NCBI GenBank assembly: GCA_016165875.1
Contig: JABBOT010000005.1
Span: forward strand, 25,445,368-25,509,367
DNA: 64,000 nucleotides
DNA from: Acanthopleura granulata
Lineage: Eukaryota; Mollusca; Polyplacophora; Chitonida; Chitonidae
Direction: 5' to 3'
The notes under the pieces: model-generated
The model's database searches: none
Seen by the model: the letters and a program-made list of their open reading frames with translations, nothing else
Told to the model about the DNA's origin: nothing
Position numbers and translations under genes: made by a program
Shown here: piece after piece, positions 16,174 through 29,325 of the stretch
Layout: each line of letters begins with the position of its first letter
Numbering within the stretch: position 1 is the stretch's first letter

Positions 16174-16497
16174 AGCAGCAGAGGGGGAATGCAAAAACTA
16201 TTCGGAGCCCCTCCACGACCCCACGAGCCCCCCAGCCTCTCCTGGGGCTAATTTCTACTGCACATCAAGCCATATGGTGTTCGTGTACATAAATTTTTGC
16301 CACTTATCTATGTACACATACGGGCGTTCGCATTCGGAGACAATTGCCCCAGCCCCTGGTGCGGCAAATTTCTACTGCACATCAAGCCATATGGTGTTCG
16401 CGTTCACAACGTTTTGCCAAATATCCATGTACACAAACGGGCGTTCACGTTCATAAACTTTTGCCAGTTATCTATGTAGACAAACGGGCGTTCACAT
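16174..16497 (+). repeat. Element 1 left terminal inverted repeat
   Basis: About 324 bp, inverted relative to 28996-29325. It contains two related internal modules, each with actgcacatcaagccatatg followed by a GTACACAAACGGGCGTTC-type block. The arms diverge in the first 80 bp but keep the first 8 bp. Confidence 0.88.
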
Positions 16498-17590
16498 TCA
16501 GAAAAAGCACAATTAAGAGATCAACACTTAAGACAACAGCTGCGGACAGGCCAGCTTAATCTCGGACATTGTGAAGATGCGCCTTGTCCAGATGTGGTAG
16601 CGACTCGAGGAGGTGGGCTGCCAGTGCGACCACGCTTTCAGTAAACCAAAAGTTGGTATGCAATACAGAATATACTGGGGATATACACTAGCAGACCTGC
16701 TTATGCAATATAAATAGCTCGACTGAGAGCCAGTTGGCCTGCATAGCTGGCGAGACCGGCGGCTTTATATTTATACATAAATATGTGTTATATCCTGTAT
16801 TGCATACCAGCTTTCGAGATAGAGTACAGTCTTCTGACCTATACATGTGTATACCAGAGATCAAAGTAAAGAACAGGCAATATATTGGCCCCACTATTAT
16901 GTATACCATTAGTTCTAACGGTTGATACAATAGTCTACAACTACCTGGTGTAAATGTAGAAGCATACGGAGGCTACATTATCGACTTTTCAATACATTAG
17001 CGAAATGAGCTCTCAGTATTTGACGCCATGTCTACCGCATGGCATTCTGGGATGGATGACTAGCATATTTTTATCTGTGGAATTCAGCGAAAATAATCTC
17101 TCTGAGCAAACACTAAAATTATATTCTTTATCAGCGCTTCTTTCTACACGAGATAGGTACTTTTTGCGACAAATGGGCTTTGGGAGGAATAAGTATATGG
17201 ATTCACAGCTAAGATACTCGAACGACGTGTGGAGCAGTGAGATCTCCCAAAGACCGATACGGTACACACCAGTCACGTCTCTCTCACATGTAGTGGTTCA
17301 AACCCCTAGGCTGGTTCAGTCATAGGACGGGTGTGGTATATTCAGAAGGCTTGCATGCCTAACATGGGCGACCAGTTCCCACAGGCATATCGGAAGCACT
17401 TTCCAGTGGGAAAAGGCCTCTGGACTCCCACAGCGCATGAATGAAAAATAAATTAAAACCCTACGGAACTCAGGCGAGACGTGGGAACGGCTTTGCTTTT
17501 TTTTATTTCAACAAATTAGTATTATAGCGACTTCAACTAATCCGTCAGTCTGAGTCTGGCTGCTCGGCCTCATATAGTTTACCACTGAGG
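16498..17590. other. Element 1-specific non-coding segment
   Basis: About 1.1 kb between the left TIR and the block shared with element 2, without counterpart in element 2. It contains an inverted pair, ttggtatgcaatacag at about 16653 and ctgtattgcatacca near 16795, spanning about 160 bp. It may be a nested insertion. No conserved protein is visible. Confidence 0.45.
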
Positions 17591-17738
17591 CCTGGCAACC
17601 CAGAGCAAATTAAATCATGTAATTTAACGCTGAATCTGGTCATTTTGTATTTCTGGTTTTTTTTAGCGTTGTAAAGTTTATGTAGAATATATAAAGCAAC
17701 ACCCCACCTGACCCCAACTGAGGTTAGAATGAGTACAT

Positions 17739-18010
17739 TTGATAAGGGCGATGGACACATCTTACAGCCGATTTCAGAGTAATACTACAAGTATATCGAA
17801 CTCCAGTATCCCACCTCTCTGTCGAGAAGTTCAGTCGGCGGACAGTTTTTTCATGAAGGATGCGCGAGCCCCTGCTGCACTAACTCGTCCCACGTTTTCT
17901 TATCTAATGAAATCGAGTTATGTGCTGTGCCGACTCGAATCTATTGTTTCATTTCTCGGTATTTTTCGACTTCACCGAGTATTAACCGAAACTAGTGTAT
18001 CCGAAATACA
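17739..18010 (+). CDS. Small ORF conserved between elements 1 and 2
   Basis: Begins MDTSYSRF and includes the core FSYLMK-SYVL-RL and SFL-IF-LHRVL. The same frame is open in element 2 at 46454-46720 despite many substitutions, which suggests a real small gene, although residues 25-45 differ. It lies 3' of gene A and points towards it. No function is recognised. Alternatively it is the preserved 3' untranslated end of gene A. Confidence 0.35.
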
Positions 18011-19126
18011 AGTGCGCCATCTTTATGTAGACGCCGTTAGAATGTTTAATTCTAAATCCGATTTGAGTTTAAAACTTAAGCTTAACCGTTTCAACAGAAA
18101 GTCATGCTCTAGATTTATACGGTTAAACCGTACCGCTTGTGGCGCAGCGGCGGCGACATTGTCTAACGTCATCTCAATGTTATTAGGTCTCGGAAGTATT
18201 TTTACGACGATAGTTACGCTTTTACCGACATGCTCTTTCGGCCACCCGATCTTCAAGCCAGGAAGGATGTGGAAGGGCTTGGAAACTGGATTATGGCCCA
18301 ATATAATATCCAGAATGATTATGGTACCCGTGGGAACCTCCCCAAAGGGAAATGGTGTGTTGATATGGAGGTAAGATGTTGTATCTAGACCTCCCATCAT
18401 ATGGCCCCCTTCCGGCAGTATTCGAACATGAATTTCATCTTCCATGGCAGTGTACGAGAGGTAAGCCGTGCCCTCAGTGCAAACCCTTTGAACAACACCA
18501 CCCCTTTTTGTGTGCACCAGGACCACGGTCACAGCCAGATTAATGTTCCATTTGGGAACATCCGATTTAACGAGACCCTATACCCTATTCTCACGACCAT
18601 CGGATAGAACCCGGGTGAGTTTTTGGAGCGCATTCGGGGCTACCATATCCATATCGGCGAGTTTAATCAACTTCGGTGGCTCTCCGGATCCCCCCCGACG
18701 GCACCTTTTTTCGTGCATAAACACCTCCACCCGAAGGCGTAAGTCCGCCCATCCACCCCTTGCTGTTCGAAACCCTCGAGATCTCCCAGATCCGATAAGG
18801 CTAGGCTAGCGCAATTAGGGCCCACTGGGTCCATCACATCGGCGAATGTGTAAAGTTGCGCTTAAATATGCTGTATCTACAGGTTGGCCATAAATATTTA
18901 AAAGCTTCATAGTAAGCACCGGCACAAGGGCAGCCGACACTCTTTTGTATTGTGGATTGGCAAATACAACCGCCCCTCCAGAGTTTATGCTTTCGTGGTA
19001 TACCGCGACTGCCCTCAGAAGAGTACATAAGTGGTAGACAATGCGGCGATGGTTCCGGACGAGCTCACCTCGTCTAGGTGGACAAATATTTCTTTGTGAG
19101 GCGTCAGCTTCATTCATTTCAGCCAT
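18000..19126 (-). pseudogene. Gene A: uncharacterised element protein, truncated copy
   Basis: Probable start at 19126 (MAEMNEADASQRN). Conserved segments in several frames include GQPVDTAYLSATL, EDEIHVRILPEGGHMMGG and KPFHILPGLKIGWPKEHVG. The homologue in element 2 (46677-48034) continues into a hydrophobic C-terminus that is deleted here by about 400 bp. At least three frameshifts or stops break this copy. Function unknown. The position next to gene B and the terminal membrane segments in the other copy would suit a virion or membrane protein, which is inference. Confidence 0.55.
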
Positions 19127-19407
19127 GGGTTCTTTTGCGTTTGAGAATCCCAGGAATATCAGCTTGATCTAACAGACTGATCTTTTTTTTTTTTTGAGTT
19201 CCAGTCGCACACCACCAGTAGTTCACTCAGTTCCAGTTTAGCATCCAGAGGTCGGAAAACCCCCTTGTTAAGAGTACAGACGATGTAACAGCCGCTTGGC
19301 ACGACTAATCGTTCAATCTGAAACATACATCGGCGCCAATATTCGCCTGTGGGTAGAAGGTTATATCGAGTAGGGCGACTTCTTACTGGCCTTTGGATTG
19401 TCCAGAC
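19127..19407. promoter_or_regulatory. Divergent intergenic region between genes A and B
   Basis: About 280 bp separates the starts of gene A (minus) and gene B (plus), with a 13-T run at about 19183. A shared bidirectional promoter is likely from the layout alone; no defined motif was recognised. Confidence 0.3.
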
Positions 19408-28500: not shown

Positions 28501-28608
28501 AAGAACCCGCGGCCTATGGAGGTGGTTTTCCGGAATAGGTTCATCAAGGATATACCCGGGCTTGTACTCTGCAAGTATCTCTTCGATCAACCCATCCATA
28601 GTCGTCAT
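25563..28608 (-). pseudogene. DNA polymerase B - SF1 helicase - HNH nuclease fusion gene, broken
   Basis: About 1,015 codons on the minus strand from MTTMDGLIEEILAEYKPGY (28608) to TGA 25563-25565. N-terminal region to about 27900. Family B polymerase palm: motif A as VSIDMKACYAASF (about 27620) and motif C as RVATDSNY (about 27010), with a GYSIIGKFSQGSK block where motif B is expected. Then an SF1 helicase: GGGG-type Walker A near 26700, VIIWDEV (Walker B, about 26510), CCGDQGQPPPI, and a late LTVH/SQG motif split by a stop near 26025. Last, an HNH zinc-type nuclease: CAKC (about 25755) and CLEC near 25605. At least six stops or frameshifts. Role in intact relatives: replication of the element, inferred. 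Confidence 0.7.
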
Positions 28609-28646
28609 GCTGCTGCTGGATGGGTATACCACATGTGACAATGTCT

Positions 28647-28913
28647 TTAAATAGGAATTTCAATGGCGGCCATACGTGCAAATTCTTTCTCCACTGCACT
28701 CTTATCACATCGCCACGCATTTCGGTATCCCCGCGCGAGACAGAGCCTTTGTTTGTTAGTAACTCCAACCTCACAAATTCGACAAGGCTGTGTGCATGAG
28801 CCCTTACGAAGCTTTGCCAGGTGAACCTTAGGGAAACAACCAAGGCAACTTTTACGGTAGAGCTCTGTTGAACTTAAGGTGAGCCACTTGCATGTGTTAT
28901 GTCTCTTGGGCAT
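28647..28913 (-). CDS. Zinc-ribbon-like small protein upstream of the polymerase gene
   Basis: Intact 88-codon frame from MPKRHNTCKWLTLSS to FARMAAIEIPI. It carries CRIC (first knuckle) and a GYRNAW segment. The homologue in element 2 (49876-50128) has CQIC and CLTC, a four-cysteine zinc ribbon; here the second pair reads CLARG, so one Cys is lost. It lies 38 bp upstream of the polymerase gene on the same strand, so the two were probably co-transcribed or once joined. Function unknown. Confidence 0.5.
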   Translation of the reverse strand: MPKRHNTCKWLTLSSTELYRKSCLGCFPKVHLAKLRKGSCTQPCRICEVGVTNKQRLCLARGYRNAWRCDKSAVEKEFARMAAIEIPI

Positions 28914-28995
28914 GTTGATTACATTAGTGTATCAGTAATAGCGTATCTGAATGGAGAGATCGGGCCGGCGAGGATGGTGAGCCGTCTCTTATGTG

Positions 28996-29325
28996 AACGC
29001 CCGTTTGTCTACATAGATAATTGGCAAAAGTTTATGTACGCGAACGCCCGTTTGTGTACATGGATATTTGGCAAAACGTTGTGAACGCGAACACCATATG
29101 GCTTGATGTGCAGTAGAAATTTGCCGAACGAGGGGCTGGGGCATTATTTCTGAATGTGAACGCCCGTTTGTGTACATAGATAAGTGGCAAAAGTTTATGT
29201 ACACGAACACCATATGGCTTGATGTGCAGTAGAAATTAGCCCCAGGATGGGCTTGGGGGCTCGTCGGGTATTGGGGATGGGGGTGGTGGTGTCCCAATAG
29301 TTTCTGCATTCGCCCTCCTGCTGCT
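28996..29325 (-). repeat. Element 1 right terminal inverted repeat
   Basis: Reverse complement of the left arm, with the same two internal modules (caccatatggcttgatgtgc occurs twice). It ends in CTGCTGCT at 29318-29325. Confidence 0.88.

Follow-up and report, generated by a model that had tools for sequence, protein, structure and literature searches.

A degraded endogenous Polinton-like virus, probably of Tlr1 type, and an internally deleted relative in the genome of Acanthopleura granulata

A 64,000-nt stretch of the Acanthopleura granulata genome (GCA_016165875.1, contig JABBOT010000005.1, positions 25,445,368-25,509,367, forward strand; hereafter the window) was found to contain two related virus-like elements bounded by terminal inverted repeats (TIRs). 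The larger of these, copy 1 (16174-29325), started with AGCAGCAG (16174) and ended with CTGCTGCT (29325), and its inverted arms (324 bp left, 335 bp right, partly composed of 117-bp tandem units) were 89.3% identical. The window contained three AGCAGCAG and five CTGCTGCT sites, and among the pairs in which the latter lay to the right of the former, identical outer 5-mers were observed only for 16174/29325. An earlier note on this DNA had described a complete element with inverted termini, arms of about 325 bp and a perfect flanking ACAAG repeat. All of these structures were present, and completeness held for the boundaries but not for the genes, which showed frame changes, stop codons and an integrase whose middle was gone. 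The features of both copies were as follows (ORF, open reading frame):

16169..16173: left target-site duplication ACAAG, copy 1
16174..16497, + strand: left TIR with internal 117-bp tandem repeat
18026..18577, - strand: what is left of conserved gene A; copy 2 has homologous DNA at 47136-47494
18818..19168, - strand: what is left of conserved gene B; copy 2 has homologous DNA at 47545-48089
20652..21249, - strand: remnant of a gene divergent from the capsid gene
21261..22588, + strand: major capsid protein gene of double-jelly-roll type, split into four or more pieces that occupy two main frames
22595..23174, + strand: packaging ATPase (Pox_A32-like), broken; located by tblastn with a sister-copy ORF that scored above the Pfam PF04665 cut-off
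23460..23876, + strand: conserved gene that follows the ATPase, 40% identical to an ORF of a sister copy
24238..24471, + strand: conserved small gene
24847..25155, + strand: conserved gene on the 5' side of the integrase, 61% identical to an ORF of a sister copy
25175..25570, + strand: rve integrase remnant (N-terminal part 25175-25447, far C-terminal part 25484-25570)
25505..25755, - strand: HNH-like stretch and tail, C-terminus of the polymerase-helicase protein (motif and sister-copy homology; weak profile)
25762..26900, - strand: superfamily 1 helicase domain, broken (PF13604 sub-threshold in the window; sister-copy profiles)
26963..28322, - strand: polymerase palm and N-terminal extension, with motif A within 27256-27795 and motif C (ATDS) within 26960-27205 (palm by motif only)
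28991..29325, - strand: right TIR
29326..29330: right target-site duplication ACAAG, copy 1
44941..44945: left target-site duplication TGTAG, copy 2
44946..50588, + strand: copy 2, an internal-deletion derivative of the same family in which the TIRs and genes A and B survive along with fragments
50589..50593: right target-site duplication TGTAG, copy 2

Gene content of copy 1

Modelling supported a capsid protein of double-jelly-roll (DJR) type, which was short and showed a predicted fold closest to PBCV-1-type proteins. A total of 3363 relatives of this protein were found among 7999 candidates scored, and none of the best 120 of them carried a precomputed Pfam domain, so that a virus-derived class in animal genomes may escape annotation. 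A further search for relatives of the capsid gene (best 120 of 288 used) was also carried out, the full-length set comprised 115 of 359 proteins, and alignment A4 was built from 50 of these 115 (48 chosen at less than 90% identity, plus two more). Pairwise identity within the 115 full-length members among the best-listed matches was at least 61%, with a median of 70%. A PDB sequence search with the capsid protein gave no useful match, and fold prediction of one truncated capsid relative gave no usable model (pLDDT 42.7).

The window versions of the ATPase, integrase and helicase genes were too broken for profile detection, save for a sub-threshold helicase match, and these genes were therefore read in sister copies. 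An ORF of 221 aa lying directly 3' of the capsid gene in a sister copy, homologous to 22595-23174 of the window, matched Pox_A32 with 38.1 bits (cut-off 22.8), pointing to a packaging ATPase of the A32/FtsK-HerA type; a PDB sequence search with this protein returned no useful match. A second sister-copy ORF (225 aa), aligned to 25175-25447, matched PF00665 (rve) with 40.4 bits (cut-off 32.6) and would thus represent the integrase, the window version of which was truncated, its middle part having no counterpart there. No chromodomain match was found in the C-terminal integrase ORF of a sister copy.

On the opposite strand, the piece containing polymerase motif A (27256-27795) had 147 relatives among 194 candidates. 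The best 120 of these included one from Capitella teleta and 23 from metagenome-assembled genomes (MAGs) of Candidatus Thiodiazotropha, and relatives bridged positions 26520-28310 across frames. Motif C read ATDS in the window as well as in sister copies L013 and L014. In alignment A6 (28 of the best 120 polymerase relatives plus the window piece), seven members reached this motif, four of them with ATDS and the others with AIDS, AVDG and one gapped, while DTD occurred in none, suggesting a motif C in which the first Asp has been changed. In L014 one open frame covered both motif C and the Walker A region of the helicase, with an HNH-like stretch further on, and in L015 the end of the helicase was followed by the HNH-like stretch. 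Pfam cut-offs were passed by AAA_30 and AAA_19 in the L013 helicase ORF, which aligned to 26402-26864 of the window, and by AAA_19 in the L014 ORF; the helicase piece of the window itself matched PF13604 under the cut-off (E 0.0013) and a PHROG of Dda-like helicases (E 0.0037). The polymerase piece matched one PHROG of unknown function (E 0.011). PDB sequence searches with helicase and polymerase retrieved nothing useful, and Pfam, PHROG and NCBIfam scans of the window pieces otherwise yielded only weak matches, judged to be due to chance.

The earlier note had proposed capsid, packaging ATPase, integrase and polymerase-helicase-HNH genes on both strands, to be checked by profile and structure searches. 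These genes were recognized through relatives and sister copies, and the searches returned a DJR capsid fold, a Pox_A32 ATPase and an rve integrase. Among the remaining genes, the sister-copy homologue of the remnant at 20652..21249 was an open frame of 398 aa with a hydrophobic stretch that runs on in another frame. Gene A showed only weak Pfam matches (best E 0.13), no PHROG was matched by gene A or B, and no NCBIfam family by the copy-2 version of A.

Copies in the window and in the genome

Self-comparison of the window revealed the collinear segments of copy 2, overlooked in the earlier note, with termini AGCAGCAG and ACTGCT. In the DNA alignment this copy lacked counterparts of 21022-26695 and of most of 26884-28420. 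It is therefore without capsid and ATPase genes and has lost the greater part of integrase and polymerase-helicase; at the protein level, 49148-49494 still showed short matches to the C-terminal end of the integrase and to the polymerase-helicase. Two pieces of an arginyl-tRNA synthetase gene (split exons) flanked copy 2, both matching best to 'Arginine--tRNA ligase, cytoplasmic' (E 2.1e-31 and 1.3e-24; next group 1.4e-16 and 1.2e-06), the best-matching chains of which we take to be human. Together with the split exons, these matches point to an animal host.

Across the genome (606.5 Mb, 87 contigs), at least 62 TIR matches (40 of 467 candidates scored) and at least 127 capsid match rows (97 of 1019 candidates scored) were obtained, and at least one capsid match covered nearly the whole protein without a stop. 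A further facing TIR pair was separated by 12.9 kb, with arms 88% identical. The three best-scoring of the 127 capsid rows, those with loci, differed by about 3% and are, by this divergence, young, while the window copy, with arms 11% apart, would be older, provided that insertion left it with two identical arms. Copy 1 is a dead fossil of a family that is present in many copies in this genome, some of them young. Capsid matches with identical scores were observed in pairs (C1/C81, C3/C80 and two places in C83 of the genome, G000), which suggest duplicated contigs, haplotigs or segmental duplication. Sub-repeats of the TIR occurred in tandem arrays at G000:C36:369675-371219 and G000:C10:10310907-10311922, with steps of about 117 bp in one type and about 165-169 bp in another, a pattern that would fit satellite-like DNA seeded by the TIR.

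In other assemblies, some ORFs (P0044, P0136, P0202, P0225, P0227) fused distant parts of the element, e.g. capsid with the small gene or HNH with polymerase, and internal-deletion copies therefore exist elsewhere too. Family members were also deposited under Candidatus Thiodiazotropha and Sedimenticola MAGs (P0011, P0127, P0128, P0249, P0285), and these are probably animal host DNA in symbiont assemblies.

Affinities and rival explanations

Based on gene plan and motifs, copy 1 is very probably an endogenous Polinton-like virus (PLV) of Tlr1 type, known from a ciliate and from viruses of algae. The Polinton or PLV ancestry suggested in the earlier note agrees with the DJR capsid, the Pox_A32-type ATPase, the rve integrase and the order polymerase motifs, superfamily 1 helicase, HNH-like stretch. 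Tlr1 type is preferred to a canonical Polinton/Maverick because the helicase lies behind the polymerase motifs and motif C is without its first Asp. Among eight features listed for Tlr1-type elements, four were found (capsid, ATPase, integrase and motif C); the list also names a palm-helicase fusion, a C-terminal HNH or GIY-YIG endonuclease, a minor capsid (penton) protein and a position next to Tlr1 in helicase and capsid trees. Sequence and modelling support the termini and duplications as well as the family assignment of capsid, ATPase, integrase and helicase, while polymerase activity, virion formation and mobilization of deletion copies in trans are inferred. Taking the protein families as a guide to the cycle, linear DNA with TIRs would be inserted by the rve integrase with a 5-bp stagger, leaving 5-bp duplications; replication would be carried out by the polymerase-helicase fusion with its C-terminal HNH nuclease, and the Pox_A32-like ATPase would pack the DNA into a capsid built of the DJR major protein.

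Several results weigh against this placement. Capsid_N reached 16.4 bits in the one member with a reported score (cut-off 24), the palm was called from motifs in the window piece and its relatives with no Pfam or PDB match, and the HNH-like stretch was also called by motif (PF01844 sub-threshold, E 0.08 in one sister copy). In L013 polymerase and helicase followed in the same order, but the HNH core was missing between helicase and tail. Neither a minor capsid or penton protein nor a maturation protease was identified among the element genes. The further TIR pair was flanked by TAATT/TATTT, a match at only 4 of 5 positions. The three capsid copies (pairwise dS 0.014-0.039, dN 0.028-0.033, dN/dS 0.83-1.94) gave no sign of selection since insertion, as far as these substitution rates indicate. 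A scan of prokaryote genome contigs yielded no confirmed relative, and the same was true of family and motif scans of IMG/VR viral contigs. This last result would also fit an element living purely inside the cell, a transposon that has retained capsid genes, makes no virions and spreads by transposition only, as would the divergence of only about 3% between copies of a single genome and the internal deletions in some of them. Such a life style, which overlaps with the Tlr1-type placement, seems unlikely, since the capsid is conserved across its full-length members and the ATPase frame is open in a sister copy, a pattern suggestive of selection on packaging where the lineage is active.

A canonical Polinton/Maverick or an adintovirus, with an ordinary protein-primed polymerase B and a hexon-type capsid, appears quite improbable. 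Copy 1 shares with Polintons/Mavericks the rve integrase, the packaging ATPase, here Pox_A32-like, and the DJR capsid, and its TIRs have the 5'-AG termini with which Polinton/Maverick TIRs begin, but it differs in the helicase behind the polymerase motifs and in a short capsid that is PBCV-1-type by fold. The polymerase B of canonical Polintons has an exonuclease domain and no fused helicase, whereas here the helicase region lies in frame behind motif C of a palm called by motif. Target duplications measure 6 bp in Polintons and 5-6 bp in Mavericks; those found here were 5 bp in the two clear cases and a 4/5 match in the third, which departs from the Polinton length and is not decisive, given the range of Mavericks. 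Among the viral fold matches of the capsid, rank eight is an adintovirus protein whose annotation is penton capsid protein, which favors that group. Adintoviruses, as defined in PMC11071296, share the animal association, the rve integrase and the DJR capsid; copy 1 differs by its helicase behind the polymerase motifs, the lack of a chromodomain match and an adintovirus protein match by fold only. Criteria for the group include an rve integrase that ends in a chromodomain and a hexon related by BLASTp to adintovirus hexons.

That the elements arose as artefacts of assembly or by contamination, or are a cluster of unrelated host genes, has negligible probability. Similar proteins do carry bacterial MAG names, e.g. 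the Candidatus Thiodiazotropha entries among the best polymerase relatives, but animal DNA carried over into symbiont assemblies would account better for such names. The two copies have separate duplications and share one contig, next to exons of a eukaryotic arginyl-tRNA synthetase, matches occur on many contigs, and the genes include viral hallmarks. A host gene cluster, a chance repeat and bacterial contamination were rejected; we regard the artefact, contamination and host-gene readings as refuted by the dispersed TIR-bounded copies.

Returning to the Tlr1-type placement, Tlr1-like helicases have, according to PMC11071308, a protein-primed palm in whose motif C the first Asp is changed, joined to a superfamily 1 helicase and ending in a GIY-YIG or HNH domain. 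Tlr1 of Tetrahymena and PLVs with Tlr1-like helicases (PMC11071308, PMC4642659, PMC3671162) share with copy 1 the DJR capsid, the packaging ATPase and, in Tlr1, the rve integrase, as well as the altered first Asp of motif C; the fusion of palm and superfamily 1 helicase and the C-terminal homing endonuclease are putative further parallels, palm and HNH being called here by motif. Compared with Tlr1, the present element is about 13 kb long, has an HNH-like stretch instead of the reported GIY-YIG and resides in an animal, and its capsid and polymerase are recognizable mainly through their own relatives. OmPLV of Oxyrrhis is likewise a PLV with fused superfamily 1 helicase and polymerase B, and differs by an N-terminal helicase, a retained exonuclease, a size of about 25 kb and no rve integrase detected (PMC12721341). 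As to animals, PMC10120064 reports cnidarian capsid genes as the only metazoan ones outside its main Maverick-Polinton cluster, and Nematostella and Hydra sequences are named in the tree legends of PMC4642659.

We see an even chance that a large, unnamed Tlr1-type PLV lineage colonized marine invertebrates and is still amplifying, spawning non-autonomous deletion copies that are moved in trans, so that animals would carry a virus group hitherto described from protists. The earlier note had suspected an undescribed lineage. Among the open-access papers listed (judged by title and start of abstract), none dealt with Tlr1-type elements in animals; most subscription journals lay outside this search, and the evidence for novelty is weak. 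If the lineage is new, it would extend Tlr1-type viruses from protists to animals, make their host switching and age testable by comparative genomics, and explain viral proteins filed under bacterial symbiont names.

Surroundings of the elements

In 1-kb bins, G+C content was 0.43-0.55 in copy 1 and 0.34-0.47 elsewhere, except for 0.52-0.53 at 48001-50000 (inside copy 2). Rfam gave no match across the window at gathering scores. Just to the right of copy 1, open pieces at 29944-30547 resembled what we take, from its motif, to be the RNase H domain of a LINE. Self-comparison of the window also detected a dispersed repeat of about 140-260 bp, with roughly 73-85% identity between copies (3472-3640, 9911-10145, 34394-34652, 35342-35573, 39047-39243, 41795-42054, 42149-42292 and 56284-56433), and large tandem-repeat arrays at 45290-46204 (inside copy 2), 51425-52589 and 58699-59612. 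Next to copy 2, a tandem duplication with 95% identity (50977-51267) extended into an arginyl-tRNA synthetase exon.

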